Assembly (NCBI GenBank): GCA_020852755.1 | Contig: JADZAF010000229.1 | Location: 1-64,000, forward strand | DNA length: 64,000 nucleotides | DNA from: Bryobacterales bacterium | Lineage (GTDB): Bacteria > Acidobacteriota > Terriglobia > Bryobacterales > Bryobacteraceae | Reading direction: 5' to 3' | Part shown: positions 7,302-24,602 of the stretch, in pieces | Layout of the letters: each line of letters starts with the position of its first letter | How positions within the stretch are numbered: position 1 is the stretch's first letter | Position numbers and translations under genes: made by a program | The notes under the pieces: generated by a model | Databases searched by the model: none | What the model was told of the DNA's origin: nothing | The model's input: the letters and a program-made list of their open reading frames with translations, nothing else

Positions 7302-7350
7302 GAGGGCCGTTTCGCTTATCATTTGGCTTTTGAACAGGAGGAAACCGCAC

Positions 7351-8514
7351 ATGTCGACTTCACCCGCGCGCCGGGGATTCCTGCGGCGGCTGGCGGCGCT
7401 GGGCAGCGTTCCGGCGGCCGGCGCCATGGCCGCGCAGGCGCAAACTGCCGGACCGGCCTGGCTGCCGCAATACGCGCGCGCGCAGAACTACCGGTCGCTG
7501 AAGCAATCCAGTCACGAACGTAACGGCGGCAACGCCGACCGCTGGCCGATCAAGCCCGGCCAGACGCAGGAAGTGTTCATCGCGCAGGGGCCGGGCGTCA
7601 TCACCCACATCTGGTTCACGATCGCGGCGCAAAGCCTGAATCATTTGAAGGAAGTGGTAATCCGCATGTACTGGGACGGGAACGCGCGGCCCAGCGTGGA
7701 AGCGCCGGCCGGCGATTTCTTCGGGCTGAACCTGGGGCAGTACAACGTCTACCAGTCGGCATTTCTGAACTGTTCGCCGATCCGGGCGCTGAACTGCTAT
7801 TTCGCCATGCCGTTCCGCAAGTCGGCGCGGATCACGGCCACCAACGAAGGGCCCCAGGACGTGGGGGCGTTTTACTCGAACATCGACTACAAGCTGGTCC
7901 CGTCGCTGCCGGACGATGTGGTGTATTTCCACGCGCAGTACCGCCAGGCGGCGCCCAACCGCGCCAGCACGGACGACTGGAAGAGCAACCCGGACGCCAA
8001 CCGGCTGCTGAACCCGGACGGGAAGCAGAACTACGTGTACGCCGAGACGCGGGGGCGCGGCCATCTGATGGGCGTGACCCTGGGCGTGCTGCAGAACCAG
8101 GAGTTCTGGATGGGCGAAGGCGACGACATGATTTTCGTCGACGACGATTCCAGGCCGGTCATCGTGGGCACCGGATCGGAGGACTATTTCTGTGGAGCGT
8201 GGAACTTCGGCGGCCGCGATACGGCCATCCCCTTCGCGCACCTGTACAACGGCGCGCATTACATCTCGCTGCCGGAACACACGGGGGGGCGCTACTGCCT
8301 GTACCGCTGGCACGCCGACAACCCGGTGACGTTCACCCGGTCGATGCGGCACACCATGGAGCACGGGCACGCCAATCACCGGGCGGACAACTTCTACTCG
8401 GTGTGTTACTGGTACCAGACCGAGCCGTTCACGGACTTTCCGCCGCTGCCGCCGGCGCAGGAGCGGATTGCGGGGTTGAAGGCAGTGTCGGGCCCGGGAG
8501 GAGCGGGGCGGTAG
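7351..8514 (+). CDS. GH172 (DUF2961) family glycoside hydrolase, Tat-exported
   Basis: 387 residues from the ATG at 7351, with AGGAGGA at 7336-7342. The N-terminus (SPARRGFLRRLAALG) is a twin-arginine signal, so the protein is probably folded before export. The body has the DUF2961 hallmark blocks: GPGVITHIWFTI, MYWDGNARPSVEAPAGDFFG and IVGTGSEDYFCGAWNFGG. Characterised GH172 members act on alpha-fructofuranosides or alpha-arabinofuranosides and are built as trimeric double jelly-rolls; the actual substrate here is not known. It is followed by a secreted cupin gene 78 nt downstream, likely the same transcript. Confidence 0.85.
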   Translation: MSTSPARRGFLRRLAALGSVPAAGAMAAQAQTAGPAWLPQYARAQNYRSLKQSSHERNGGNADRWPIKPGQTQEVFIAQGPGVITHIWFTIAAQSLNHLKEVVIRMYWDGNARPSVEAPAGDFFGLNLGQYNVYQSAFLNCSPIRALNCYFAMPFRKSARITATNEGPQDVGAFYSNIDYKLVPSLPDDVVYFHAQYRQAAPNRASTDDWKSNPDANRLLNPDGKQNYVYAETRGRGHLMGVTLGVLQNQEFWMGEGDDMIFVDDDSRPVIVGTGSEDYFCGAWNFGGRDTAIPFAHLYNGAHYISLPEHTGGRYCLYRWHADNPVTFTRSMRHTMEHGHANHRADNFYSVCYWYQTEPFTDFPPLPPAQERIAGLKAVSGPGGAGR

Positions 8515-9059: not shown

Positions 9060-9098
9060 GGGAGTTTGGGGGTTATGTAGCCTGTCACCGAAACTCCC
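9060..9098. repeat. Short repeat with complementary ends, copy 2
   Basis: The best-paired copy: GGGAGTTT (9060-9067) against AAACTCCC (9091-9098), 8 perfect base pairs closing a 23-nt centre identical to that of copy 3. It fills the entire gap between the convergent cupin stop (9057) and receptor stop (9098-9100) and could serve both genes as a shared 3'-end hairpin. Confidence 0.8.
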
Positions 9099-12000
9099 TA
9101 AAAGTGGATGCGGCCGGTGTACTGAACCTCGCGGCCGTAGTTGCCGCCCGCGATCCAGGTGCTCTTGCCGAAGTTGGCGCTGGTCACGCCCATGGTCGGC
9201 TGGCTGGGCATGAACGCGTTGGGGAAGTTGTAGAACTCCATGCGGAGTTCGAACCTCACCCGCTCGGTGATGGGGAAGTACTTCACGGCGGTGGCATCCC
9301 ACTGCCAGAAGCCCGGACCGCGCAGGCCGTCGTAGTACCAGGGGTTGGTGCGCGGCGTGTAGGGCTCCATCTGCCTGAACCTGGAGGTGTCGAACCAGCG
9401 GTCGAGAGTGGGATTGCCGATCTTGGGATTGCCCTCCGCGATCATTCCGCCGAAGGTAAGCAGCGGGCCGCCGTTCCACATGAAGATGTGGCTGGGGGCC
9501 CACCCGCCGATGAGCGCGTCCACCACGCGGCTGACGTTCGAGCCGAACCTGCGGCCACGGCCGAAGGGCAGCTCATAGGTGCCGGCCAGGCGGACGTAGT
9601 GGCGTGCGTCGCGAGTGTCGATCAGGGTGAATTTCCTGGCGTAGGTGTCGGGGTCGTTGAAGAACTCGTCCCGGCTCTCACGGCTGTAGTTGTATCCGAA
9701 GCTGAAGGTCAAGCCATTCGTCATGGGCCGCTCGGCCTTGAACTGGAGCGAATAGTAGCGGCTGTCCTTGCCCCTCAGGAAGCGCTCGGTGAGGGTTCCG
9801 TAGTGAGGGTAGGGCTTCAGCAGGCTGCCCACGCTGACTGTCTTCTGGTTGCGCAAAGGTCCGGGCATCTTGTCCGCGGGCAGGAGCAGGTAGAACGGAT
9901 TCGCGACCGAGGCGGTAGTAGCGCCCTTGTAGGTGTAGCCGTAGTTCGGGTCCACCATGTTGAGGTTGTAGGTGTAGTCGCCGCCCCACATGCTGGCATC
10001 CTGGACATCGCGGCCCAGGTTGAGGAAGAAGGTCGTGTCCGTCAGGATATTGAAGGGCATCTGGCGCTGCAGGGAGACGTTGATGCGGTCATTGACGGGA
10101 TGGACCATGTCCTGCGGGAAGAAAGTGGCGCTATCGCCCAGGTTGGTGTAGCGGCCAAGACTTTTGCCCACGGGGAGCAGCAGCGGGTTGGTGCTGGGGA
10201 AGGGGTCGCTGATGAGGGTGCGGGGCACGCCTTCGATGGGACCCAGCGCGGTGGTGGTGCGGGCGAAACCGTCCTTCGGCCAGCGGGTGGTTTCGGGGAA
10301 GATGGTCACCCAGGGCACCGAGTAGCGCGCAAAGCCGGCGCGCAGAGCGGTCAGGTCGTTGATGCGAATGGCGGCGCCGACGCGCGGCAGGAACAGGTTC
10401 TTCTGGGAGTTGAAGACCCCGGGATGATCGTCGTCGGTAAATACCCAGGCGCCGGTCCACTTGTACTGGCCCTTGTAGATGGAGGTCACCTCCGGGGGCA
10501 TGGCCGGCGGGGTGGCGAATTCGGGGATTGGATTCCCGAGGTCGAGGTAGCGGGAGTACATACGGCTGTACTCGGAGGGGGCCGTTTCCATCTCCCAGCG
10601 CAGACCGAGATTCAGGGTGAGGCGGCGGGTCAGCTTGATGTCATCCTGGACGAAGAAGCTCCACATCTGCTGGTGGGAGTCGACCATGGGAGTGAAGTTG
10701 GCGTTGCCGCTGTTCACGACACCCAGCAACGCGGAGGCGTACATGTTGCCGCTCAGCCGGGCGTCGTGCTTCAGGAAGCTGTCGCCGGTATCGACGGAGT
10801 TGAACGAGAAGCCGCCAGGGCCGGGAGAGCCATTCTGATCGTACTGGTAGCGCAACTGCCAGCCGGCCTTCCAATGGTGGATGCCGCGGTCGTGGGTGAT
10901 GTTGAGGTTGGAGTTGTGGGACCGGGCGCGCACCAGCCACCAGCCGCTCTTGCCGGTGCTCACCGAGCCGTTGCCCGAGAAACTGAAGCTCGGATAGTAG
11001 ACGCCCGGCAGGAACTCGATCACCGGTTTGTACCAGCCGTTCGGCCAGAGGCTGGCCCAAACGGAGGTGGGCACCTTGGCCCAGTCGGAATCGTAATCGT
11101 CTTCGGCGTAGACGGCGCCATAGCGCATATTGACGGTGGTGGTGGGGCTCACCATGTAGAGCACGTCCACGGCGGCGTTCAGGGCATCCATCAAACCGCC
11201 GTTATCCGAAGGCACGGCGATGGTGCCGCCGTGGTTGGGGTTGTCGAGGCGGGTCTCGTAGCGGGAATAGCGCGTGTACATGCGCCACTTGTCGCTGATG
11301 TTGAAATCCACGCGGTTGGAGAGGTTCCAGTACTTCAGCCACCAGGGGTAGGAGTTACGGTAGTTGTCTATCCCGGTAATGCCGAGTCCCGGGTTATTGG
11401 GTTTCCAGAGATCGTTCAGGATCTTCTGCCCGGTGGGATCGATGCGGTCCGTGGGAATGATGTTGCCCGGAAAGGGCGTGCGGGTCACCGTGGCGGTAAC
11501 GGGATCGAACCTGGTAGTGAAGGGATCGTAGATGGGGCGTATCCCGCCGTCTGGGGTGAAGGAGCGCGAGAAATTGCCGACGCGCTCGAGGTCGGTCGGT
11601 TGCGTGGAGACCCATTCGCGCGGCTGGGTGTTCTTCCAGCGCTCGTAGGTCTGATAGAAGAAGAGGCGGTTCTTGAGGATGGGGCCGCCCACGGTGCCAC
11701 CCCCGATGTGGTTCTTCACCAGGCTGATGCCGCCGGGGACCAGGCGGTTGGTGACGGCGTTCAGCTTGGGGTTACGGCCGAAGTAGTAGGCGGTTCCATG
11801 GAAATCGTTGGTGCCCGATTTCATGGAGACGTTCAAGGTGCCGCCGGCCGAGAATCCGAACTCGGCGTCGAGGGCGTTCTGCTGCACGGCCACCTCCTGC
11901 ACGCCATCCATGGAGGGCATGTAGGAACCGCGGGCCGAGACGCCCAGGGCCACGCCGTCCAGCAGCATGTCGTTCTTGCCGCCGGTGCGCCCGCCGACGT

Positions 12001-12565
12001 CCAATCCGTTGGAGGACCACATGTAGAACGGGTTGCGGTGAGAGACGTCCCAGTAGCGGTTGATGACCGCCGGGTTGAGCAGGGCAAGCGTGAAGGGGTT
12101 TCGCGCCAGAATAGGAATGTCCTTCAGCATCTGGCCCTGCACGGTAGTGGTCATGGTGGATGTGTTGAACTGCACCTGGGCGACCTGTTCGGTGACCGTA
12201 ACGGTCTCCGCTACGGCGCCCACGGTAAGTTGAGCGTTCACCGTGACGTCGCCACGGGTGAGCACGCCGATGTTCTCCTGGAGGAAACGCTGGAAACCAG
12301 CGGCCTCGACGGAGACCGTGTAACTGCCGGGTTGTACGAAATCGAACAAATAGTGGCCGGTGGCGTCGGTCTCGCGAGTGGTTTCCGTTCCAGTGTTGAT
12401 ATTTCTCAGGGTTACCTTGGCGCCCACGATGGCCGCCTGGCTGGGGTCGGTGACCAGACCCTGCACCCTGGCTCGGTACTCTTGCCCGGTCGCAGTTCCT
12501 GACAGGAGGAACAGAGAGGCCAGGCAAGGCAATAGCGCGATCCTGCGCGCAGATGTTGTACGCAT
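9098..12565 (-). CDS. TonB-dependent receptor, Oar-like, copy 1
   Basis: 1155-residue outer-membrane transporter. Residues 1-28 are a signal peptide (MRTTSARRIALLPCLASLFLLSGTATG). Residues about 30-115 form a CarboxypepD_reg beta-sandwich (GLVTDPSQAAIVGAKV; DATGHYLFDFVQPGSYTV). A plug domain follows (about 130-240, with LDGVALGVSARGSYMPSMDG), then a long beta-barrel ending in aromatic-terminal YTGRIHF, the usual BamA recognition end. Receptors of this size are common in Acidobacteriota, usually without a SusD partner, as here. Residue motifs (TSTMTTTVQG, KDIPILARNPF, MWSSNGLD) make copy 2 the nearest relative. The substrate is unknown; neighbouring GH172/cupin genes hint at glycans. Confidence 0.92.
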   Translation of the reverse strand: MRTTSARRIALLPCLASLFLLSGTATGQEYRARVQGLVTDPSQAAIVGAKVTLRNINTGTETTRETDATGHYLFDFVQPGSYTVSVEAAGFQRFLQENIGVLTRGDVTVNAQLTVGAVAETVTVTEQVAQVQFNTSTMTTTVQGQMLKDIPILARNPFTLALLNPAVINRYWDVSHRNPFYMWSSNGLDVGGRTGGKNDMLLDGVALGVSARGSYMPSMDGVQEVAVQQNALDAEFGFSAGGTLNVSMKSGTNDFHGTAYYFGRNPKLNAVTNRLVPGGISLVKNHIGGGTVGGPILKNRLFFYQTYERWKNTQPREWVSTQPTDLERVGNFSRSFTPDGGIRPIYDPFTTRFDPVTATVTRTPFPGNIIPTDRIDPTGQKILNDLWKPNNPGLGITGIDNYRNSYPWWLKYWNLSNRVDFNISDKWRMYTRYSRYETRLDNPNHGGTIAVPSDNGGLMDALNAAVDVLYMVSPTTTVNMRYGAVYAEDDYDSDWAKVPTSVWASLWPNGWYKPVIEFLPGVYYPSFSFSGNGSVSTGKSGWWLVRARSHNSNLNITHDRGIHHWKAGWQLRYQYDQNGSPGPGGFSFNSVDTGDSFLKHDARLSGNMYASALLGVVNSGNANFTPMVDSHQQMWSFFVQDDIKLTRRLTLNLGLRWEMETAPSEYSRMYSRYLDLGNPIPEFATPPAMPPEVTSIYKGQYKWTGAWVFTDDDHPGVFNSQKNLFLPRVGAAIRINDLTALRAGFARYSVPWVTIFPETTRWPKDGFARTTTALGPIEGVPRTLISDPFPSTNPLLLPVGKSLGRYTNLGDSATFFPQDMVHPVNDRINVSLQRQMPFNILTDTTFFLNLGRDVQDASMWGGDYTYNLNMVDPNYGYTYKGATTASVANPFYLLLPADKMPGPLRNQKTVSVGSLLKPYPHYGTLTERFLRGKDSRYYSLQFKAERPMTNGLTFSFGYNYSRESRDEFFNDPDTYARKFTLIDTRDARHYVRLAGTYELPFGRGRRFGSNVSRVVDALIGGWAPSHIFMWNGGPLLTFGGMIAEGNPKIGNPTLDRWFDTSRFRQMEPYTPRTNPWYYDGLRGPGFWQWDATAVKYFPITERVRFELRMEFYNFPNAFMPSQPTMGVTSANFGKSTWIAGGNYGREVQYTGRIHF

Positions 12566-12634
12566 TCGTCTTGACTCCCTAAGCCTATTTGTTGTGTCCG
12601 CGCCGAGCGGACCCCCTGCAATCTGACTCGGACC

Positions 12635-12662
12635 GGAATAACAGTCTTCCGGACCGGATCAA
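12635..12662 (-). promoter_or_regulatory. Putative promoter of receptor copy 1
   Basis: On the minus strand TTGATC (12657-12662) and TATTCC (12635-12640) are 16 nt apart, about 70 nt upstream of the receptor start. The -35 resembles the other three receptor promoters; the -10 is weak. The leader near the start (GGGAGTCAAGAC before the ATG) is nearly identical to that of receptor copy 4. Confidence 0.45.
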
Positions 12663-12713
12663 CTGATTTCGATTTCGCACAGGCAGAAGACAGCGTCACG
12701 GGGTGCGGAGGAC

Positions 12714-12746
12714 GGGGGGAGGGCGGGGACCAAAGGGTTTGGGGGG
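12714..12746 (+). other. G-quadruplex-forming tract
   Basis: Plus-strand runs of 6, 3, 4, 3 and 6 guanines separated by loops of 1-6 nt fit the G3+N1-7 rule. The tract lies between the promoter of receptor 1 and the terminator of receptor 2, in DNA without genes. Confidence 0.5.
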
Positions 12747-12778
12747 TGCTGCCGTACGGGAGGTTAAGGGAAACGAAC

Positions 12779-12815
12779 GGGGAGTTCGGGGGTTATGTAG
12801 CCTGTCACCGGAACT
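12779..12815. repeat. Short repeat with complementary ends, copy 3
   Basis: Arms AGTTC (12783-12787) and GAACT (12811-12815). Compared with copies 1 and 2 (AGTTT/AAACT), the innermost T-A pair is changed to C-G on both sides, a compensatory change. The 23-nt centre is identical to copy 2. The element abuts the T-run of the terminator that follows receptor copy 2. Confidence 0.8.
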
Positions 12816-12847
12816 AAAAAGCCGGCCCGGCGGAGGGCCGGGCCGGC
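12816..12847 (-). terminator. Rho-independent terminator of receptor copy 2
   Basis: An 11-bp perfect stem, GCCGGCCCGGC (12821-12831) with GCCGGGCCGGC (12837-12847), and a 5-nt loop. On the minus strand it is followed by TTTTT. It lies 26 nt after the stop codon of receptor copy 2. Confidence 0.9.
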
Positions 12848-12873
12848 TGTCAGGTGCTGCAGGTGACTGTAGT

Positions 12874-15800
12874 TTAGAAGTGGATGCGGCCGGTGTACTG
12901 CACTTCGCGGCCGTAGTTGCCTCCGGCCACGCCGGTGCTGCGGCCGAAGGTCGAGCTGGTCACACCCAGGCTGGGCTGGCTGGGCATGAAGGAGTTCGGG
13001 AAGTTGTAGAACTCCATGCGGAGCTCGAACTTCACGCGCTCGGTCACCTGGAAGTACTTCACCGCGGTGGCATCCCACTGCCAGAAGCCGAAACCGCGCA
13101 GCCCGTCGTAGTACCAGGGGTTGGTGCGCGGCGTGTAAGGCGCCAGCTGCGAGAAGACCGAGGTGTCGAAGTACTTGTCCTTGGTCGGGTTGTCGATCTT
13201 CGGGTCGCCGGTGGCGTTCATGGCGCCGAAGGTCAGCAGCGGGCCGCTGTTCCACATGAAGATGTGGCTGGTGGCCCAGCCGCCGATGATCGCATCCACC
13301 ACGCGATTGACATTGCCTCCGAACTGGCGGCCGCGTCCGAACGGAAGTTCGTAGGTGCCGGCCAGGCGGACGTAGTGCCGCGGGTCGCGGGTGTCGATCA
13401 TGGTGAATTCCTTGGCGTAGGTCGCGGGGTCGTTGAAGAACTCACCCCTGGACTCCTTGCTGTAGTTGTAGCCGAAGCTGAAGGCCAGGCCCTTGGCCAT
13501 GGGCTTCTCGGCTTTGAACTGGAGCGAGTAGTAACGGCTGTCCTTGCCTTGGAGGAAGCGCTCGGTCAGGTTGCCGTACTGCGGATACTGCCGGAGCAGG
13601 CTGTTGACCGTTACCTTCTGCTGGGTGCGGAGCGCGCCGGGCATCTTGTCGGCGCCCAGCAGCATGTAGAACGGATTGTTCACCTGGACGTCCACCGCGC
13701 CCTTATAGGTGTAGGCGTAGTTGGGGTCCACCATGTTGAGGTTGTAGTTGTAATCGCCGCCCCACATGCTGGAGTCCTGAACGTTGCGGCCCAGGTTCAT
13801 GAAGAAGGTGGTATCGGTCAGGATCTGGAGAGGCAACTGGCGCTGCAGGGAGACGTTGAAGCGGTCGTTGATCGGATGGATCATGTCCTGCGGGAAGAAG
13901 GTGGCGGCCTGTCCGAGGTTCAGGTAGCGGCCGAGGCTCTTGCCCACCGGGACTTGCAGCGGGTTGTCCGAGGGGAACGGGTTGTCGATGGTCGCGCGCG
14001 GCACGCCGTTGAGCGGCCCCAGGATGCTGGTCGAGCGCGCAAATCCGTCCTTGGGCCAGGAATTGGTTTCCGGGTAGATGGTCACCCAGGGCACCGAGTA
14101 GCGGGCGAAGCCGACGCGCAGCGAGGTGATATCGTTGATGCGGAAGGCGGCTCCGGCGCGGGGCAGGAAGACGTTCTTCTGGGAATTGAAGACTCCCGGG
14201 TGATCGTCGTCGGTATAGATCCAGGCGCCGTTGTAAAGGAACTGGCCCTTGTAGAGCGAGGTCACTTCGTTGGGCATCTTCACCACGCCGCCCTGCAACT
14301 CGGGGATCGGGTTGGTCAGGTCGAGGGTGCGGGAGTACATGCGGCTGTACTCGGAGGGCGCGGTCTCGAGTTCATAGCGCAGGCCGAGATTGAGGGTCAG
14401 CCAGCGGTTGACGCGGATATCGTCCTGGAAGAAGAAACCCCACATCTGCTGGTGGGAGTCCACCATGGGGGTGTACTGGGCATTGCCGCCGTTGAGCACG
14501 CCCAGCAGCGTCGAGGCGTACATGTTGCCGCTCTGGGAGGCGTTGAACTTCAGGTAGTTGTCGCCGGTGTCGACGGCGTTGAAGTTGAACGAGCCCGGTC
14601 CGGGGTTGCCATTCTGATCGTACTGGTAGCGGAGCTGCCAGCCGGCCTTCATGTGGTGGATACCGCGGTCGTGGGTCACGTTGAGGTTGCTGTTGTGGGA
14701 GCGCCCGCGGACCAGCCACCAGCTTCCGAAGCCGGTGTAGGAGCTGCCGTTGCCGCTGAAGTTGAAGCGCGGATAGTAGATGCCCGGCAGACCCTTCAGG
14801 ATGGGCTCGTACCACTTGTTGGGGAACAGGTTGGCCCAGGTGCTCTCGGGGACCTGCGACCAGGTGGAGTTGTAGTCGTCTTCCAGGTAGACGGCGCTAT
14901 AGCGCATGTTGACCGTGGTGGTCGGGCTGGCCATGTACAGGAAGTCGATGGCGGGCTGGAGGGCGTCCATCAAGCCGCCGTTGTCCGAGGGGACCGCGAT
15001 GGTGCCGCCCCAGTTGGGGTTGTCCAGCCGGGTCTCGTACTTGGAGAAGCGGGCATACATGCGCCACTTGTCGTTGATGTTGTAGTCGACGCGGTTGGAG
15101 AAGTTCCAATACTTCAACCACCAGGCGTAGGCGATGCGATAGTTATTGATGCCGGTCAGGTCGTCGCCGGCATTGTTCGGCTTCCAGAGATCGTTCATGA
15201 TCTTGGCGCCGGTGGGGTTGATACGGTTCTGGGGGATGATATTCCCGGGGAACGGGGTGCGGCTGGAGGTTCCGGTGGCCGAATCGAACTTGGTTGTCCA
15301 TGGGTCGTAGATGGCCCGCAGGCTGCCGTCCTTGGCGAAGGAGCGGGAGAAGTCGCCGACCCGTTCCAGGTCGGTGGCCACGGTCTGGTCCTTGCCGGAG
15401 GGCTGGGTGTTCTTCCAGCGCTCGTAGGCTGCGTAGAAGAAGAGCTTGTTCTTCACGATGGGCCCGCCGATGGTGCCGCCGTAGATGTGGTTCTTGATAA
15501 CGCTGGCCTGGCGGCCGGCGCCGGTGAGCAGCCGGTTGGTGACGGCGTTGAGCTTGGGGTTGCGGCCGAAGTAGTAACCGGTGCCATGAAAATCATTGGT
15601 GCCCGATTTCATGGAGACGTTGAGGGTGCCGCCGGCCGAGAAGCCGAACTCGCTGTCCAGCGCGTTCTGCTGCACGGCCACTTCCTGCACGGCGTCCATG
15701 GAAGGCATGTAGGAACCGCGGGCCGAGAGACCCAGCGCGGCGCCGTCCAGCAGCATGTCGTTCTTGCCGCCGGTGCGTCCGCCGATGTCCAGACCGTTGG

Positions 15801-16353
15801 AGGACCACATATAGAACGGGTTGCGGTGCGAGACGTCCCAGTACTTGTTGATCACGGCCGGGTTCAGCAGGGCCAGGGAGAAGGGATTCCGCGCGAGGAT
15901 GGGAATGTCCTTCAGCAGGTTGCCCTGCACGGTCGTAGTCATCGTGGAAGTGTTGAACTGGACCTGGGCCACTTCCTCCGATACCGTGATGGTCTCCGCC
16001 ACGGCGCCGACGGTGAGACTGGCGTTGACGGTTACGTCGCCGCGGGTGAGCACGCTGATGTTCTCTTGCAGGAACCGCTGGAAACCGGCGGCCTCGATGG
16101 CGACCGAGTAGGTGCCCGGCTGAACGAAGTCGAACAGGTAGCGGCCGGTGGCATCGGTACTGCGGCTGGTTTCGGTTCCGGTGTTAACGTTCCTCAGGGT
16201 TACCTTGGCGCCCACGATGGCCGCCTGGCTGGGGTCTGTGACCAGACCCGATACCCTGGCTCGATACTCTTGCCCGCTCGCAATCCCCGTTAACAGGAAG
16301 ACGAGGGCGAGGCAAGTAAGGCTTACAAGCCAAAGCGAAGTTTTTCTTTGCAT
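12874..16353 (-). CDS. TonB-dependent receptor, Oar-like, copy 2
   Basis: 1159 residues, with the same plan as copy 1: signal peptide (MQRKTSLWLVSLTCLALVFLLTGIASG), CarboxypepD_reg sandwich, plug (LDGAALGLSARGSYMPSMDA), barrel and YTGRIHF end. Nearly all blocks align with copy 1 without large gaps, so the two are recent tandem duplicates relative to copies 3 and 4. Differences cluster in loop-like stretches (for example RLLTGAGRQASVIKNHIYG against RLVPGGISLVKNHIGG), as expected when external loops diverge to bind different ligands. It has its own promoter and strong terminator, so it is probably an independent transcription unit. Confidence 0.92.
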   Translation of the reverse strand: MQRKTSLWLVSLTCLALVFLLTGIASGQEYRARVSGLVTDPSQAAIVGAKVTLRNVNTGTETSRSTDATGRYLFDFVQPGTYSVAIEAAGFQRFLQENISVLTRGDVTVNASLTVGAVAETITVSEEVAQVQFNTSTMTTTVQGNLLKDIPILARNPFSLALLNPAVINKYWDVSHRNPFYMWSSNGLDIGGRTGGKNDMLLDGAALGLSARGSYMPSMDAVQEVAVQQNALDSEFGFSAGGTLNVSMKSGTNDFHGTGYYFGRNPKLNAVTNRLLTGAGRQASVIKNHIYGGTIGGPIVKNKLFFYAAYERWKNTQPSGKDQTVATDLERVGDFSRSFAKDGSLRAIYDPWTTKFDSATGTSSRTPFPGNIIPQNRINPTGAKIMNDLWKPNNAGDDLTGINNYRIAYAWWLKYWNFSNRVDYNINDKWRMYARFSKYETRLDNPNWGGTIAVPSDNGGLMDALQPAIDFLYMASPTTTVNMRYSAVYLEDDYNSTWSQVPESTWANLFPNKWYEPILKGLPGIYYPRFNFSGNGSSYTGFGSWWLVRGRSHNSNLNVTHDRGIHHMKAGWQLRYQYDQNGNPGPGSFNFNAVDTGDNYLKFNASQSGNMYASTLLGVLNGGNAQYTPMVDSHQQMWGFFFQDDIRVNRWLTLNLGLRYELETAPSEYSRMYSRTLDLTNPIPELQGGVVKMPNEVTSLYKGQFLYNGAWIYTDDDHPGVFNSQKNVFLPRAGAAFRINDITSLRVGFARYSVPWVTIYPETNSWPKDGFARSTSILGPLNGVPRATIDNPFPSDNPLQVPVGKSLGRYLNLGQAATFFPQDMIHPINDRFNVSLQRQLPLQILTDTTFFMNLGRNVQDSSMWGGDYNYNLNMVDPNYAYTYKGAVDVQVNNPFYMLLGADKMPGALRTQQKVTVNSLLRQYPQYGNLTERFLQGKDSRYYSLQFKAEKPMAKGLAFSFGYNYSKESRGEFFNDPATYAKEFTMIDTRDPRHYVRLAGTYELPFGRGRQFGGNVNRVVDAIIGGWATSHIFMWNSGPLLTFGAMNATGDPKIDNPTKDKYFDTSVFSQLAPYTPRTNPWYYDGLRGFGFWQWDATAVKYFQVTERVKFELRMEFYNFPNSFMPSQPSLGVTSSTFGRSTGVAGGNYGREVQYTGRIHF

Positions 16354-16440
16354 GTATCTGAACTCCCGGAGGACACAGGTAATGTCCTCAGGTATTTGGA
16401 CCCCTTATGCTGCTTATGGACAGAAAACGAGTGTTTCAGA

Positions 16441-16491
16441 CCCTTTCCCACCATTGGATGAACAATAGCACGGTGATCCGGACGGGGTCAA
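16441..16491 (-). promoter_or_regulatory. Putative promoter of receptor copy 2 with shared downstream box
   Basis: On the minus strand TTGACC (16486-16491) and TATTGT (16462-16467) are 18 nt apart. AATGGTGGGAAAGGG (16441-16455) follows and occurs identically at the same relative position in the promoter of receptor copy 3. Just upstream, GGTCTCTCCTGC is also shared with copy 3. The leader to the start codon is about 90-105 nt. Confidence 0.6.
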
Positions 16492-16625
16492 GCCGGAATC
16501 ACGCAGGAGAGACCCAGCCGGTCCGACAGGCCGGCTGACCACCGGCCGGCAGGTCAGTGACCATCCCCAACCCGCTTCGCCGGTGAAGAGACTATGGCTT
16601 TGTACGGCCGACGGAAATAAGCCCC

Positions 16626-16809
16626 CGATGGGTTTGCCGTTTCCGGACTTTGGCTGGGCGAGGCAGGCGTTTCGGTTCCTCGGCGGGTCTCCGGAGAGCC
16701 GCCTTTCGCGGGGGCTGGACAGCCAGGGAGTCCGAACATGCGGACACCTTTGCGCAGGGAAGTCCTGAGCGGCGGAAGGAACTCCGACGGCAGGAGACCG
16801 CGCAAGCGG
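16626..16809. repeat. Duplicated intergenic module, copy A
   Basis: About 180 bp downstream of receptor copy 3 that aligns by eye with 20772-20941 downstream of receptor copy 4, ending at each gene's terminator. Long identical words include CCGGACTTTGGCTGG, CGGCGGGTCTCCG and GGACAGCCAGGGAGTCCG. On the plus strand both copies can be read as a peptide containing FPDFGW, then FRF and GGSP, but the frames diverge afterwards. It marks a duplication that included the 3' flank. The rest of the 16354-16858 gap holds the receptor 2 leader and promoter and nothing else I can name. Confidence 0.7.
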
Positions 16810-16837
16810 AAAAAAAGGCCCGGCCGGGAGCCGGGCC
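16810..16837 (-). terminator. Rho-independent terminator of receptor copy 3
   Basis: Arms GGCCCGGC (16817-16824) and GCCGGGCC (16830-16837), an 8-bp stem with a 5-nt loop, followed on the minus strand by TTTTTTT. It lies 21 nt after the receptor stop codon. Confidence 0.9.
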
Positions 16838-16858
16838 GCGTGTCGAAGCGGGTACTGA

Positions 16859-19800
16859 CTAGAAGTGGATGCGGCCGGTGTACTGGACCTCGCGTCCGTA
16901 GTTGCCGCCCTGCACCCAGGTGCTCCTGCCGAAGTTCGAACTGGTCGGATCCAGCTCAGGCTGGCTGGGCATGAAGGCGTTCGGCATGTTGTAGAACTCC
17001 ATGCGGAGTTCGAACTTCACGCGCTCGGTCACCTGGAAGTACTTGGACAGCGTGCTGTCCAGGCTCCAGAAGCCGAAGCCGCGCAGATCGTCGTAGTACC
17101 AGGGGTTGGTGCGCGGCGTGTAGGCCGGCTGTTGCGTGAATCCCGCCGGGTTGAAGTACTGCTGCCGGGTCGGGTTGTCGATCCTCGGGCTGTCGGCGGG
17201 CGCGACGGCCGCGCCGAAAGTCAGCCGCGGGCCGTTGTTCCACATCAGCAGGTGGCTGGTCGCCCAACCGCCCACGATTGCGTCAACCACGCGGTTCGCG
17301 TTGCCGAGAAACCGGCGGCCCCGGCCGACCGGAACTTCCCAGGTGCCGCCCAGCCGGAGGGTGTGCCGCGGCTCGCGTGTGTCGATCAACTGCAGGTCGT
17401 TGCTGTACGTGGCTATGTCGTTGAACCACTCCGAGCGGGACTCCTGGTTGTAGTTGTAGCCCATGGTCATGCTGAGGCCGTTGGCGAAAGGCCGATCGAC
17501 CTTGATCTGGATCGCCTTATACCGGTTGGAGCGCCCGGTCATGAACTGCTCATTGAGCGAACCCGCATACTGCGGATACGGCCGGAGCAGTGAAGCCACC
17601 GAGACGGTCTCCTGGTTCCGGAGGCTGCCCGGCATCTTTTCGGTCGGCAGCAGCCTGTAGAAGGGGTTCGGCACCGAAGCATCCATGGCGCCTTTGTGGG
17701 TGTAATAGAGGTTCGGATCGATCTGGTTCAAATCGTAGCCGTAGTTGCCGCCCCACATGTTGGGATACAGCTGGTTGGCCCCGAAGTTCATGAAGAAAGT
17801 GGTGTCGCTGGCGAACCGCAACGGCAACTGCCGCTGGTAGGAGATGCTGATGCGGTCGTTGATGGGGCGCTTCAGGTCCTGGTTGAACCAGCTGGCGGCG
17901 TTGCCGAGGTTGGTGTAGCGCCCGCGGCCCGTGCCCACCGGAGGCAGCACCGGGTTGCCGGCGGGGAACGGATCGCTGATCAGGGTTCTCGGCACCCCCT
18001 CGATGGGGCCCAGAGCATCGGTGACCTGGGAGTAGCCGTCGAGCGGGATGGAGCCCAGACCTTCCGTGAAGGCTCCCTTCATCGGCACCGCATACCGGGC
18101 ATAGCCCAGGCGCAAGGCGCTGAGGTCGTTGATGCGGATGGCGATGCCGGCGCGCGGCAGGAAGTTGTGGAGGTCTTTGTACACGCGCGGATTCGAGGCG
18201 TCGGTGAAGATCCAGGCGCCGTTGTACTTGTAGTTAAGCTTGGCGATCGAGGTGACCTGGGAGGGCATGGCCACGCCGCTCTGCAGTTCGGGGATCGGGT
18301 CGGCGAGGTCGAGGTAGCGGGAGAACCGGTAGTGGTCTTCCTTGGGCGCGCTCTCCGTCTCCCAGCGCACGCCCAGGTTCAGGGTGATGTTGCGGCTCAG
18401 CCTGATGTCATCCTGGAAGAACATACCCCATTGCGAGTACTGGTTGTAGAACATGGGATTGATCGTCGCGTTCCCGCTGTTCACAACACCGAGCAGGGCG
18501 GAGGCGAACTGGCTGCCGCTGCTGGCCGCGACGTGGTTGATGAAGGTGTCACCGGTGTCCACGGCGTCGAAAGTGAAACCGCCCACCGCGGGCAGGCCGT
18601 TGTAGTCGTAGCTGTACCGTAACTGCCAGCCGGCCTTCATGTGGTGAATGCCGCGATCGTGAGTCAAGGTGATGCTCGGGGCGTGGACGCGCCCGCGAAC
18701 CTGCCACCAGCTGCCCAGTCCAGCGCCGACAGAGCCGTTGCCGCTGTAGCTGATGCTCGGATAGTAGATTCCAGGCAGGTCTTTCAGCACGGGCTTGTAC
18801 CAGCCGGTCGGGAAGAGGTTGGCCCAGACGCTCTCGGGCTGCTTCGACCAGTCGGAGTCGTACTCGTCTTCGAGGTATGACGCGCCATACCGGAAATCGA
18901 TGGTGGTGGTGGGCGACATCATGTACAGCACGTCCGCGGCGGCGTTCAGGGCATCCATGATGCCGCCGTTATCGGAACGCAGGGCGATGGTGCCGGCGTA
19001 GTTGGGATTGTCGAGGCGGGTCTGGTACTTGGAGAAACGCGCGTACATGCGCCACTTGTCGTTGATGTTGTAATCCACGCGCTCGGAAAAGTTCCAGTAC
19101 TTCAGCCACCAGGCATAGGCTTTCTTGTAGTTGTTGATGCCGGTGATGTTGTCGCCGGGGTTGTTCGGCTTCCACAGGTCATCCACCAGTTTCTGCCCGG
19201 TAGGATCGATGCGCTGTGCGGGGATGATATTGCCGGGGAACGGCGTCCGCGTCACCTTCGCGGCGGCCGGATCGTACTTGGTGGTGAAGGGATCGTAGAT
19301 GGTCCGGATTCCGCCGGCCGCGTTGAAGGTCTGCGAGAAGTTGCCCGCGCGCTCCAGGTCGGTGGGCAGGGTGGAAAGGTTGGCTGACGGCTGCGTGGCT
19401 TTCCACTGCTCATAGCTGAAGTAGCTGAACAGCTTGTTCCTGATGATCGGGTTGCCGATGGTGCCGCCCCAGATGTGGTTCTTCACTACGCTCTTGTCCT
19501 GGGTGAGGCGGTTGCTCACGGCATTCAACCTCGGGTTGCGACCGAAGTAGTAGGCCGTGCCATGGTATTCGTTGGTCCCCGATTTCATGGAGAGGTTCAA
19601 GGTGCCCCCCGCGCCGAATCCGAATTCGGAGTCGACGGCGTTCTGCTGTACGGCCACTTCCTGCACGGCGTCCATGGAGGCGTTGTAGGAGCCGCGCGCC
19701 GCATAGCCCAGCGGCACGCCGTCCAGCAGCTGGTCGTTCTTGCCGCCGGTCGATCCGCCCATGTCCATGCCGGAGTTGGACCACATGTAGAACGGGTTGC

Positions 19801-20326
19801 GGTGCGACACGTCCCAGTACCGGTTGACGACTGCGGGATTCAGCAGCGCCAGGGTGAAGGGGTTGCGCGCCAGCACAGGCACGTCTTTGAGCAACTGGCC
19901 GGTGACCATGGTGGTCATGGTGGCCGAGTTGAACTGCACAGCGGCCACTTCTTCGGAAACCGTGACCGTCTCGGCAACGGCGCCCACGGTCAACTGCGCG
20001 TTGACGGTGACGTCTCCGCGCGTCAGAACGGTGATGTTGCCCTGCACGAACCTCTGGAAGCCCGTGGCCTCGACGGCCACTTCATAGGTTCCAGGCTGAA
20101 CGAAGTCGAACGTGTACAGGCCGGCGGCATCGGTCTGTTTGGAGGTCTCGACCCCGGTGTTGACGTTCTTCAGGGATACCTTGGCTCCGACAATCGCCGC
20201 CTGGCTTGGGTCGGTCACCGCACCCTGAACTTTTCCACGATAGTCCTGGGCGGATCCTATCGCGGCAAATAACATGAGAAGAACCAGGAGGGACAGAACT
20301 CCCCTGGCCCGCGGAACTCTCTTCAT
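16859..20326 (-). CDS. TonB-dependent receptor, Oar-like, copy 3
   Basis: 1155 residues. Signal peptide MKRVPRARGVLSLLVLLMLFAAIGSAQ, then the CarboxypepD_reg domain (GAVTDPSQAAIVGAKVSLKN), a plug with LDGVPLGYAARGSYNASMDA, a barrel and the YTGRIHF end. Blocks such as TMTTMVTGQLLKDVPVL, MWSNSGMD and the FGAAVAPADSPRIDNPT region are shared with copy 4 and differ from copies 1 and 2, so copies 3 and 4 form the second duplicate pair. The start follows GGCATGGAG. The 5' flank carries a promoter related to copies 2 and 4 and, further upstream, an AT-rich half-site array, so this copy may be specifically regulated. Confidence 0.92.
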   Translation of the reverse strand: MKRVPRARGVLSLLVLLMLFAAIGSAQDYRGKVQGAVTDPSQAAIVGAKVSLKNVNTGVETSKQTDAAGLYTFDFVQPGTYEVAVEATGFQRFVQGNITVLTRGDVTVNAQLTVGAVAETVTVSEEVAAVQFNSATMTTMVTGQLLKDVPVLARNPFTLALLNPAVVNRYWDVSHRNPFYMWSNSGMDMGGSTGGKNDQLLDGVPLGYAARGSYNASMDAVQEVAVQQNAVDSEFGFGAGGTLNLSMKSGTNEYHGTAYYFGRNPRLNAVSNRLTQDKSVVKNHIWGGTIGNPIIRNKLFSYFSYEQWKATQPSANLSTLPTDLERAGNFSQTFNAAGGIRTIYDPFTTKYDPAAAKVTRTPFPGNIIPAQRIDPTGQKLVDDLWKPNNPGDNITGINNYKKAYAWWLKYWNFSERVDYNINDKWRMYARFSKYQTRLDNPNYAGTIALRSDNGGIMDALNAAADVLYMMSPTTTIDFRYGASYLEDEYDSDWSKQPESVWANLFPTGWYKPVLKDLPGIYYPSISYSGNGSVGAGLGSWWQVRGRVHAPSITLTHDRGIHHMKAGWQLRYSYDYNGLPAVGGFTFDAVDTGDTFINHVAASSGSQFASALLGVVNSGNATINPMFYNQYSQWGMFFQDDIRLSRNITLNLGVRWETESAPKEDHYRFSRYLDLADPIPELQSGVAMPSQVTSIAKLNYKYNGAWIFTDASNPRVYKDLHNFLPRAGIAIRINDLSALRLGYARYAVPMKGAFTEGLGSIPLDGYSQVTDALGPIEGVPRTLISDPFPAGNPVLPPVGTGRGRYTNLGNAASWFNQDLKRPINDRISISYQRQLPLRFASDTTFFMNFGANQLYPNMWGGNYGYDLNQIDPNLYYTHKGAMDASVPNPFYRLLPTEKMPGSLRNQETVSVASLLRPYPQYAGSLNEQFMTGRSNRYKAIQIKVDRPFANGLSMTMGYNYNQESRSEWFNDIATYSNDLQLIDTREPRHTLRLGGTWEVPVGRGRRFLGNANRVVDAIVGGWATSHLLMWNNGPRLTFGAAVAPADSPRIDNPTRQQYFNPAGFTQQPAYTPRTNPWYYDDLRGFGFWSLDSTLSKYFQVTERVKFELRMEFYNMPNAFMPSQPELDPTSSNFGRSTWVQGGNYGREVQYTGRIHF

Positions 20327-20435
20327 CGGCTACTCCATGCCAACAGATTTGCTGTCACCGTCGTGGTCAGCTTGATGGTAAGCCGGCGCCCATGACGGCT
20401 TCGTGGCCTCCATGGATGGCAAAAGGGTATTGGGG

Positions 20436-20486
20436 CCCTTTCCCACCATTTCGGGGACCGGTAACACGGGGCCTGGAGGGAGTCAA
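20436..20486 (-). promoter_or_regulatory. Putative promoter of receptor copy 3
   Basis: On the minus strand TTGACT (20481-20486), 16 nt, then TTACCG (20459-20464). The same TTGACT-16-TTACCG pair occurs upstream of receptor copy 4. It is followed by AATGGTGGGAAAGGG (20436-20450), shared with receptor copy 2, and preceded by GGTCTCTCCTGC. The poor -10 match to TATAAT suggests an activator or an alternative sigma factor. Confidence 0.6.
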
Positions 20487-20669
20487 GCAGGAGAGACCCG
20501 GCCGGTCCGGCGGCGAGTGGGTGCGGGTCGCCCGGCGGGTCTTCCCGAGAATCAGGAATCTCTGTAAGTTCTATAAGTTGCAGCGCCGGCAACAGCCCAA
20601 AGCGAGACACCGAAAATTTACATCGCGGTTGGGAGCGGGGTGTATGGCCGGCTGACCGCCGGGAAACAG

Positions 20670-20706
20670 GTTAATAACTATTAACATTGCCGGCGATGAT
20701 ATTAAC
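20670..20706. promoter_or_regulatory. AT-rich half-site array, possible operator
   Basis: GTTAATA (20670-20676) and TATTAAC (20679-20685) form an inverted repeat with a 2-nt spacer. A third TATTAAC sits at 20700-20706, exactly 21 bp after the second, two helical turns. The array stands out in an otherwise GC-rich region about 190 bp upstream of the receptor 3 promoter. It looks like a binding site for a dimeric regulator; the factor is unknown. The remaining DNA of the 20327-20995 gap outside this array, the promoter and the repeat module shows no gene. Confidence 0.45.
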
Positions 20707-20771
20707 TTCGCAAGGTTCTGACCTTAAGTGAATAGCCTTTAATCATCTGCTTCAGCCGCAAGCTTTCCTCA

Positions 20772-20941
20772 ATGCGTTTGCTGTTTCCGGACTTTGGCTG
20801 GAGGGGGCCGGCCTTCCGGTTCTTCGGCGGGTCTCCGCATCCGCCTTTTGGCAGGCCAGGACAGCCAGGGAGTCCGGGCGTGAACGCCTGTCCGCCGGGA
20901 AGGGCTGAGCGGTGGGAGGAGTTCCGGGGGAAAAGACCGCG
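20772..20941. repeat. Duplicated intergenic module, copy B
   Basis: Counterpart of 16626-16809, placed identically between the upstream flank of receptor copy 3 and the terminator of receptor copy 4. It diverges mostly by small substitutions and indels, including in the segment just before the terminator A-run. Confidence 0.7.
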
Positions 20942-20974
20942 AAAAAAAAGGGCCCGGCTGGGTGAGCCGGGCCC
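20942..20974 (-). terminator. Rho-independent terminator of receptor copy 4
   Basis: Arms GGGCCCGGCT (20950-20959) and AGCCGGGCCC (20965-20974), a 10-bp stem with a 5-nt loop, followed on the minus strand by TTTTTTTT. It lies 21 nt after the receptor stop. Confidence 0.9.
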
Positions 20975-20995
20975 GGTTGTCGAGGCGGGTGCGGA

Positions 20996-23900
20996 CTAGA
21001 AGTGGATGCGCCCGGTGTACTGGATCTCGCGGCCGTAGTTGCCGCCCGCGATCCAGGTGCTGCGGCCGAAGTTGGAACTGGTGACGTTGCCGACTTCGGG
21101 CTGGCTGGGCATGAACGCATTGGGCATGTTGTAGAACTCCATGCGGAGTTCGAAGCGGACCCGCTCGGTGACCTGGAAGTACTTGGACAGGGTGCTGTCC
21201 AGGTTCCAGAAACCGAACCCGCGCAGGTCGCTGTAGTACCAGGGATTGGTGCGCGGGGTGTAGGCGGGGATCTGGGCGAACTTCGACGTGTCGAAGTACT
21301 TCTCGCGAGTGGGATTGTCGATCCGGGGGCTCTCGGTGGGGGCCACCGCCGCGCCGAAGGTAAGGCGCGGGCCGTTGTTCCACATCAGCAGGTGGCTGGT
21401 TCCCCAGCCGCCGATGATGGCTTCCAGAACGGGATGCACTCCGTTCAGGTACCTGCGGCCGCGGCCGACGGGCACTTCCCAGGTCCCGCCGATGCGCAGG
21501 TTGTGCCTGGGCTCGCGGGTGTCCATCAGGGTGAAGCGCTGGGCGTACTGGTCGATGTCATTGAACCAGACATCGCGCGACTCGCGGTTGTAGTTGTAGC
21601 CCATGGTCATGCTGAGGCCGTTGGCGAAGGGACGGTCGACCTTGATCTGGATGGCGTAGTAGCGGGTAGACCAGCCCTCGTTGAGGCGCTCGTTGAGATC
21701 GCCGTAGTGCGGGTAGGGACGCAGCAGGTCGCGCACGGCGACGGTCTGGCGGTTGCGCAGGTTGCCGGGCATCTTGTCGGTCGGCAAGGCCTGGTAGAAG
21801 GGATTGCGGACGGCGGCGTCCACGGCGCCTTTGTGCTGATAGATCAGGTTGGGATCCACCATGTTGAGGTTGACCTGCTCGCTGCCTCCCCACATGCTGG
21901 TGCCCAGGGCGTTGTGTCCGAAGTTCATGAAGTAGGTGAAGTCGGACAGGAGCTGCCAGGGCAGCTGGCGCTGGTAGGAGAAGTTGATGCGATCGTTGAT
22001 GGACCGCTTCAGGTCCTGATAAAACCACCAGGCGGGGTTGCCCAGGTTGGTGTAGCGCCCGCGTCCCTTGCCCACCGGCGGGATGACCGGGTTCGAAGCG
22101 GGGAAGGGGTCGCTGATCAGGGTCTTGGGCGCGCCCTCGACAGGGCTTTCGACCAGGGTCTGCTGAGAGAAGCCGTCCAGCGGGATGGAACCGAGGCCCT
22201 CGGTCCAGGCGCCCTTGAAGGGGACCGCGTAGCGGGCCCAGCCGACGCGCAGGGCGCTGAGGTCGTTGATGCGGTAGGCGACGCCGACGCGCGGCAGGAA
22301 GTTCCACTTGGCGGGATAGGTGCGGGGGTTGTCCTCATCGGTGAAGATCCATGACCCGTTGTACTTGTAGGCGACGCTGGCGATGCTGGTCACCTCGGAA
22401 GGCATCTGCGGAGCATTGGCGCCCTGGAACTCGGGGATGGGATTGTTCAGGTCGAGGTAGCGGGAGAACATCAGCTGGTCGTCCTTGGGGGCGTTCTCGT
22501 ATTCGTAACGCAGACCCAGGTTGAGGGTGAGGTTGCGGGTGAGCTTGATGTCGTCCTGGAAGAAGAGGCCCCACTGCTGATAGGCGTTGTGGAACATGGG
22601 GCTGATGGACGCGTTGCCGTTATTGACCACGCCGAGCAGGGCGGAGGCGAACTGGCTGCCGCTGTTGCGCGGGTCGAAGTTGATGAAGGTGTTGCCGGTG
22701 TCCACGGCGTTGAAGCCGAAACCGCCTACCGAGGGGAGGCCGTTGAAGTCGTAGCTGTGCCGCAACTGGTAGCCGGCCTTCATGCGGTGCATGCCGCGGT
22801 CGTGGGTGACGGTGAAGTTGCCGCTGTGCACGCGGCCGCGCACCTGCCACCAGCTGCCCAGACCGGCGCTGACCGAGCCGTTGCCGCTGAAGCTGAAGCT
22901 CGGGTAGTAGATGCCGGGCAGGTCCTTGAGCACAGGCTTGTACCAGCCGGAGGGGAAGAGGTTGGCCCAGACGCTCTCGTCCACCTTGGCCCAGTCGGAG
23001 TCGTACTCGTCCTCCATGTAGGTGGCGCCGTAGCGGAAGTTGAGAGTCGTGCGCGGGGACAGCATGTACAGGACGTCGGCGGCCGCGTTGAGAGCGTCCA
23101 TGATGCCGCCGTTGTCGGAACGCACGGCGATGGTGCCGCCGTGGTTGGGGTTATCGAGGCGGGTCTGGTACTTGGAGAAGCGGGCGTACATGCGCCACTT
23201 GTCGTTGATGTTGTAGTCGACGCGCTCGGAGATGTTCCAGTACTTGAGCCACCAGTAATACGACTTCTTGTAGTTGCCGATACCGGTGATGTCGTCGCCG
23301 GGGTGATTGGGCTTCCAGAGGTCTCCGATGACCTTCTGGCCGGTGGGGTCGATGCGCTGCTGCGGAATGACGTTGCCGGGAAAGGGCGTGCGGGTGACGG
23401 TCGCGGTGGCGGGGTCGTAGCGGGTGGTGAAAGGATCGTAGATGGTGCGCAGGGCCCCGGAGGGGGCGAAGGTGCGCGAGAAATCGCCGGCCCGCTCCAG
23501 ATCGGTGGGCAGCGTGGCAGTGGTGTTCTGGGGCTGGGTGGACTTCCACTGCTCGTAGGTGAAGTAACTGAACAGCTTGTTCTTGATGATGGGGTTGCCG
23601 ACGGTGCCGCCCCAGATATGGTTCTTGACCACGCTCTCGGTGCCCGCCAGGCGGTTGCTGACGGCGTTGAGGGCGGGGTTGCGGCCGAAGTAGTAAGCGG
23701 TGCCGTGGTAGTCGTTGGTGCCGGACTTCATGGACAGGTTGAGCACGCCGCCGGCGGAGAAGCCGAACTCGGAATCCACGGCGTTCTGCTGCACGGCCAC
23801 TTCCTGCACGGCGTCCATGGGCGCGTTGTAGGAACCGCGGGCCGCATAGCCGAGGGGCACGCCGTCCAGCAGCTGGTCGTTCTTGCCGCCGGTCTGCCCG

Positions 23901-24466
23901 CCCACGTCCATACCGGAGTTGGACCACATATAGAACGGGTTGCGGTGGGCCACATCCCAGTAGCGGTTGATCACCGCGGGGTTGAGCAGCGCCAGGGTGA
24001 AAGGATTGCGCGCCAGCACGGGCACGTCCTTCAGTAACTGGCCAGTGACCATGGTGGTCATGGTGCTGGTGTTGAACTGGACCTGAGCGATGGCCTCACT
24101 CACGTTGACCGATTCGGTGACGGCGCCGACCGTCAGCTGCGGGTTGATGGTGACGTCGCCGCGGGTCAGCACGGTGATGTTCTCCTGGGTCCACTTAGTG
24201 AATCCGGACATCTCGACGCTGACCGAGTAGGTTCCGGGCTGAACGAACTCGAACAGGTAGCGCCCGGTGGCGTCGGTATCCTTCACGGATTCAATGCCGG
24301 TTCCCAGGTTTTTCAGAGTAACTCTTGCGCCGACGACAGCCGCCTGGCTGGCGTCCGTAACAAGGCCTTGCACCTTGGCACGATAGTCCTGTCCACTCGC
24401 TGTTCCCGTGAGAATCAGCGAGACGAGACAGACCACGGCACGCGAAAACAGCGGTGTTGTTTTCAT
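20996..24466 (-). CDS. TonB-dependent receptor, Oar-like, copy 4
   Basis: 1156 residues. Signal peptide MKTTPLFSRAVVCLVSLILTGTASGQ; CarboxypepD_reg domain in which DPSQAAIVGAK of the other copies is DASQAAVVGAR; plug with LDGVPLGYAARGSYNAPMDA; barrel ending YTGRIHF. It is closest to copy 3 over the whole length, including the GAAVAP..ESPRIDNPTR region near residue 1070. The first gene of the array in transcription order, it starts after a GGGAGTCAAGAC leader box almost identical to that of copy 1, so exchange of 5' flanks between copies is possible. Its own promoter and terminator suggest a monocistronic mRNA. Confidence 0.92.
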   Translation of the reverse strand: MKTTPLFSRAVVCLVSLILTGTASGQDYRAKVQGLVTDASQAAVVGARVTLKNLGTGIESVKDTDATGRYLFEFVQPGTYSVSVEMSGFTKWTQENITVLTRGDVTINPQLTVGAVTESVNVSEAIAQVQFNTSTMTTMVTGQLLKDVPVLARNPFTLALLNPAVINRYWDVAHRNPFYMWSNSGMDVGGQTGGKNDQLLDGVPLGYAARGSYNAPMDAVQEVAVQQNAVDSEFGFSAGGVLNLSMKSGTNDYHGTAYYFGRNPALNAVSNRLAGTESVVKNHIWGGTVGNPIIKNKLFSYFTYEQWKSTQPQNTTATLPTDLERAGDFSRTFAPSGALRTIYDPFTTRYDPATATVTRTPFPGNVIPQQRIDPTGQKVIGDLWKPNHPGDDITGIGNYKKSYYWWLKYWNISERVDYNINDKWRMYARFSKYQTRLDNPNHGGTIAVRSDNGGIMDALNAAADVLYMLSPRTTLNFRYGATYMEDEYDSDWAKVDESVWANLFPSGWYKPVLKDLPGIYYPSFSFSGNGSVSAGLGSWWQVRGRVHSGNFTVTHDRGMHRMKAGYQLRHSYDFNGLPSVGGFGFNAVDTGNTFINFDPRNSGSQFASALLGVVNNGNASISPMFHNAYQQWGLFFQDDIKLTRNLTLNLGLRYEYENAPKDDQLMFSRYLDLNNPIPEFQGANAPQMPSEVTSIASVAYKYNGSWIFTDEDNPRTYPAKWNFLPRVGVAYRINDLSALRVGWARYAVPFKGAWTEGLGSIPLDGFSQQTLVESPVEGAPKTLISDPFPASNPVIPPVGKGRGRYTNLGNPAWWFYQDLKRSINDRINFSYQRQLPWQLLSDFTYFMNFGHNALGTSMWGGSEQVNLNMVDPNLIYQHKGAVDAAVRNPFYQALPTDKMPGNLRNRQTVAVRDLLRPYPHYGDLNERLNEGWSTRYYAIQIKVDRPFANGLSMTMGYNYNRESRDVWFNDIDQYAQRFTLMDTREPRHNLRIGGTWEVPVGRGRRYLNGVHPVLEAIIGGWGTSHLLMWNNGPRLTFGAAVAPTESPRIDNPTREKYFDTSKFAQIPAYTPRTNPWYYSDLRGFGFWNLDSTLSKYFQVTERVRFELRMEFYNMPNAFMPSQPEVGNVTSSNFGRSTWIAGGNYGREIQYTGRIHF

Positions 24467-24574: not shown

Positions 24575-24602
24575 CGGTAACACACACTTGCCCGGCAGTC
24601 AA
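24575..24602 (-). promoter_or_regulatory. Putative promoter of receptor copy 4
   Basis: On the minus strand TTGACT (24597-24602), 16 nt, then TTACCG (24575-24580), the same pair as for receptor copy 3. The leader to the ATG is about 105 nt and ends with GGGAGTCAAGAC. Copy 4 lacks the AATGGTGGGAAAGGG box. Confidence 0.6.

Follow-up and report, generated by a model that had tools for sequence, protein, structure and literature searches.

Four adjoining receptor genes in a Bryobacteraceae genome (Acidobacteriota; 7.4 Mb in 398 contigs) probably represent four old, functionally separate specificities of a single subfamily of Oar-type TonB-dependent transporters, and not a recent burst of duplication. 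Acidobacteria are abundant in soil. The receptor subtypes would have been born in old duplications and would later have spread among the genera of Bryobacteraceae by horizontal transfer and differential loss, with all four now found together in this genome.

The array lies on contig C229, within the window analysed here (the stretch of 64,000 nucleotides that spans positions 1 to 64,000 of this contig). Numbered in window order, the genes are R1 (9098..12565, 1155 aa), R2 (12874..16353, 1159 aa), R3 (16859..20326, 1155 aa) and R4 (20996..24466, 1156 aa), each called as an Oar-like TonB-dependent transporter from its open reading frame and domain matches. All four are on the same strand, as was claimed in the original prediction made from the sequence; this is the minus strand, and transcription proceeds in the direction from R4 to R1. 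They share one domain plan, which consists of a signal peptide, an N-terminal CarboxypepD_reg domain (PF13620; 4/4 receptors, E-values of 3e-17 to 5e-18) and a barrel of the PF25183 family, matched over its full length, with E-values in the common plan down to 1e-142. A TonB-box-like motif, read by eye from the alignment, precedes the plug region in R1-R4; it has the form E-x-(V/I)-x-V in R1-R3 (AETVTVTE in R1) and reads ESVNV in R4. A PDB sequence search with R1 as the query returned no match, and no NCBIfam model scored above its cut-off. On these sequence features, R1-R4 are predicted TonB-dependent transporters of the Oar architecture.

Within the genome, the four receptors form two pairs, R1/R2 with 78% and R3/R4 with 76% identity, while all cross pairs share 64-66%. 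The pairing proposed originally is borne out by these identities, by the informative sites (113 back the 12|34 split, and 15 and 4 back the alternatives), and by the plug-region motifs TMTTTVQG and TMTTMVTG, whose difference is fixed between the two groups. At four-fold degenerate sites, the array pairs are identical at a fraction of 0.56-0.65 of positions, compared with 0.48-0.55 expected from codon usage alone. Synonymous sites among R1-R4 are near saturation, and dN/dS is therefore unusable for these genes.

Relatives of the four receptors were sought in up to 237 genomes of the family, where their identity ranges from 56 to 86%, and a maximum likelihood tree was built for 41 receptor proteins. 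In this tree, each of the four copies belongs to a different clade, together with receptors from other genera. R1 groups with the receptors of G016, G080 and G010 (82-78% identity; support 100/100), R2 with that of G043 (86%) and then those of G065, G184, G228 and G231 (100/100), and R3 with those of G142 (81%), G193, G097, G187 and G188 (100/100), while the partner of R4 is the receptor of G054 (76%; bootstrap/SH-aLRT 91/89). In AU tests, a clade of R1-R4 was rejected with p 1.25e-87, a clade of R1 and R2 with p 3.1e-93, and a clade of R3 and R4 with p 1.15e-4; the split between R3 and R4 is the weakest one (91/89 for R4 with G054, AU p 1e-4). A phylogeny had been proposed beforehand as the check on a recent tandem expansion, and the separate old clades recovered here are the outcome named at that time as refuting it.

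The history of the subtypes was compared with a species tree based on rpoB and BamA, in which the source genome groups with G075, G093 and G121; no receptor of the R1-R4 type was found in any of these three genomes. Most other genomes have one copy, of varying subtype and at unrelated loci. Reconciliation of the receptor tree with the rpoB and BamA tree under duplication and loss required 22 duplications and 101 losses. Since duplication and loss alone come at this cost, transfer of receptor subtypes between genera is likely, and the simplest account is an old duplication followed by transfer and loss. The main caveat to this account is bin fragmentation: many of the relatives come from fragmented metagenome bins, and several lie on contigs so short that additional copies could go unnoticed (for instance, in G142 and G016).

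A purely vertical history, in which the complete array was already present in the ancestor of the family and was reduced to one or a few copies in nearly all lineages, is the less probable alternative, and we consider it unlikely. It gains from the fit of the receptor tree to the species tree, which is better than with shuffled labels (123 events in total versus a mean of 175 and a minimum of 140), and from the genome G075 of a related genus, in which four Oar-type receptor genes likewise stand in tandem (C59:48000-67900). However, the receptors of the G075 array fall in another subclade, and no flanking genes in common with this window were found beside them. Apart from the many events that it requires, the vertical scenario is also at odds with the gene neighborhoods, as the flanking genes of the window were not found beside the relatives and flanks are hardly shared between the other genera, and with genus g43, where different species hold different receptor subtypes.

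Tandem duplication has left traces in the intergenic regions. From the stop codon onward, the R4/R3 spacer aligns with the R3/R2 spacer over 239 columns with 76% identity; this stretch includes the segment 16625..16757 (minus strand) between R3 and R2 and its copy at 20769..20897 (minus strand) between R4 and R3. Downstream of R2, a 36-nt segment (12780..12815, minus strand) is 94% identical to a segment just after R1 (about 9060-9095). Because the spacers align from the stop codon and the 36-nt segment recurs after R1 and R2, the unit once duplicated in tandem was the gene together with its downstream DNA. The spacers are more alike than the near-saturated synonymous sites, which suggests either constraint or homogenisation.

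A structured RNA in the spacers was considered and rejected, as the folding energies are not clearly below those of shuffled sequences (z from -0.1 to -1.2). The RNAalifold fold of the spacer contains 4 two-sided changes, an Rfam search of the region gave nothing up to an E-value of 0.5, and a covariance model of the spacer found two copies, both in the array, and no other in the same genome or in the 237 family genomes; the segment is therefore classed simply as a duplicated spacer. Gene conversion between the N-terminal parts of R1 and R2 is hinted at by the region tree and is not required by the AU test (p 0.40). A broader and rather doubtful idea is that the locus serves as a bank of receptors, where ancient specificities exchanged by transfer are kept at one place while gene conversion homogenises the intergenic DNA, perhaps along with the N-terminal domains of R1 and R2, so that the copies differ in their substrate loops but remain similar in regulation and TonB coupling.

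The AlphaFold model of R1, the only receptor modelled, has a mean pLDDT of 78, with the barrel mostly at 75-95, and its fold matches in the PDB are TonB-dependent transporters (best E-value 3e-17). Its barrel strands were counted as 22, which gives eleven extracellular loops whose boundaries are all taken from this one model. The plug domain PF07715 had no match in R1-R4; residues 115-242 are conserved, yet have low pLDDT in the R1 model, where the plug region is poorly modelled. The original prediction had called for structure prediction to locate the variable loops; mapped on the R1 model, the subtype differences concentrate in the predicted loops L6-L8. Among the fixed differences between R1-type and R2-type receptors, 19/25 fall in predicted loops (p 0.004, with sites treated as independent), and L6-L8 have an excess of fixed positions in each of the two subtype comparisons (p about 0.001 in either case, under the same treatment of sites). 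At a matched overall identity of 76-78%, the identity of L6-L8 is 74% and 66% between paralogs, and mostly 76-83%, with one case of 71%, between orthologs. Thus, the proposed diversification of external loops holds in its location, concentrated in predicted L6-L8, but the differences are old and fixed by subtype, and do not reflect recent positive selection.

This pattern fits loops that would set specificity and are held within each subtype. A distinct ligand for each copy is plausible, since the subtype differences concentrate in predicted L6-L8. According to the mechanism we propose, each protein would, after export, be inserted as a barrel of 22 strands with a plug closing it, the CarboxypepD_reg domain and the TonB-box-like motif would couple it to a common TonB/ExbBD machine encoded elsewhere, and the choice of substrate would be made by the long extracellular loops, mainly L6-L8. 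The imported substrates are likely to be large organic molecules such as glycan fragments or peptides. The subfamily provides a tractable handle on specificity, with four adjoining subtypes in one genome, single-subtype relatives elsewhere, and a short list of L6-L8 positions that separate them.

A close architectural counterpart is the Oar class with Oar of Myxococcus xanthus, to which R1-R4 correspond in the PF13620 N-terminal domain, a TonB-box-like motif and a large predicted barrel of 22 strands (PMC6434023). In contrast to the Oar class, the barrels of R1-R4 match PF25183 best, and a PF07715 plug was not detected in them. M. xanthus Oar has an unusual role, shown for this protein only, in that it is needed for the export of the protease PopC (PMC6434023), and by analogy protein export by R1-R4 is possible. 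That the four receptors export proteins instead of importing nutrients is nevertheless quite improbable: the shared N-terminal architecture of PF13620 and TonB-box-like motif speaks for it, whereas neither a partner secreted protease nor a conserved neighbor was found. The Oar-class architecture is common to 28% of all TonB-dependent transporters and dominant in Bacteroidetes (PMC6434023); it is thus no indicator of export, and function cannot be read from the Oar plan.

The intergenic regions also carry candidate transcription signals. Intrinsic-terminator-like hairpins followed by a T-run, all on the minus strand, were found after R2 (12820..12848; 12 pairs, 11 of them G-C), R3 (16817..16837; 9 pairs, 8 G-C) and R4 (20950..20974; 10 pairs, 9 G-C), and none after R1, in agreement with the predicted terminators on three of the four genes. 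Because R2, R3 and R4 end in terminators of their own, each gene of the array is probably a separate transcription unit. An individual promoter for each gene, also proposed, is upheld in part. Consensus-like sites, all on the minus strand, lie upstream of all four genes: TTGACC-N18-TATTGT for R2 (16462..16491; 9/12 matches in the consensus scan), and weaker regions of the type TTGATC...TTATT for R1 (12637..12662) and TTGACT...TTACC for R3 (20460..20486) and R4 (24576..24602). By eye, a TTGA(C/T)-like site with a downstream T-rich hexamer is present 97-160 nt upstream in 4/4 genes, a pattern picked post hoc, but the consensus scan detected a single sigma-70-like site, the one upstream of R2, with no excess over shuffled sequences.

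The suggested switching of expression found no support, as neither a long, well-matched inverted repeat nor an invertible promoter structure was found, the longest inverted repeat being 37 nt at 70% identity, and no recombinase was detected among the flanking genes scanned. A recent tandem expansion in this lineage, with loops still diversifying and expression being switched, has the same-strand layout, the two identity pairs, the common spacers and the concentration of differences in loops in its favor, and is nonetheless highly improbable given that the AU tests reject every clade it needs, synonymous sites are near saturation and invertible elements are lacking. The case calls for caution, in that tandem layout and pairwise identity within one genome can pass for recent expansion.

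The array constitutes four genes of a very large set, given the genome-wide match counts for R1 and PF25183 and the other neighboring copies: more than 100 related receptors are encoded in this genome. A search with R1 gave 177 matches, the nearest paralog outside the array being at 54% identity. PF25183 had 138 candidates, and all 65 that were scored exceeded the cut-off; adjoining genes of this family are also present on other contigs of the genome, such as C92 and C118. Candidatus Solibacter usitatus Ellin6076 was previously reported to have many TonB-dependent receptor paralogs with substitution saturation, attributed to ancient duplication or transfer (PMC3174227), and R1-R4 resemble those paralog groups in all these respects. 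They differ in forming one subfamily in tandem whose subtype relatives were traced across genera. Saturated TonB-receptor paralogs are thus already known, and the array is well supported but ordinary.

In agreement with the original prediction that no SusD-like or TonB-like gene adjoins the array, neither domain was found in the flanking open reading frames scanned. The locus resembles the SusC/SusD loci of Bacteroidota in that a TonB-dependent transporter with a CarboxypepD_reg domain is encoded close to a glycoside hydrolase, but the array is without a SusD gene, and its GH172-type neighbor is not conserved beside the relatives. The product of this DUF2961 gene (7330-8514, plus strand) matches the GH172 structures 8ic8 (exo-D-arabinofuranosidase) and 7v1v (difructose dianhydride synthase), and a weak DUF4185/GH183 match was observed nearby (4516-5604, minus strand). 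The GH172 and GH183 families degrade D-arabinan (PMC10115798); D-arabinan as the receptor ligand was considered and not adopted, as the GH172/GH183-like genes do not accompany the relatives. On the other side, the array is adjoined by a gene for a secreted TPR protein (25907-27067, plus strand) that also has a CarboxypepD_reg domain. In several genera, genes for FG-GAP/ASPIC-UnbV and TPR proteins adjoin the receptor relatives (loci L126, L131, L141 and others), and these proteins are possible functional partners of the receptors.
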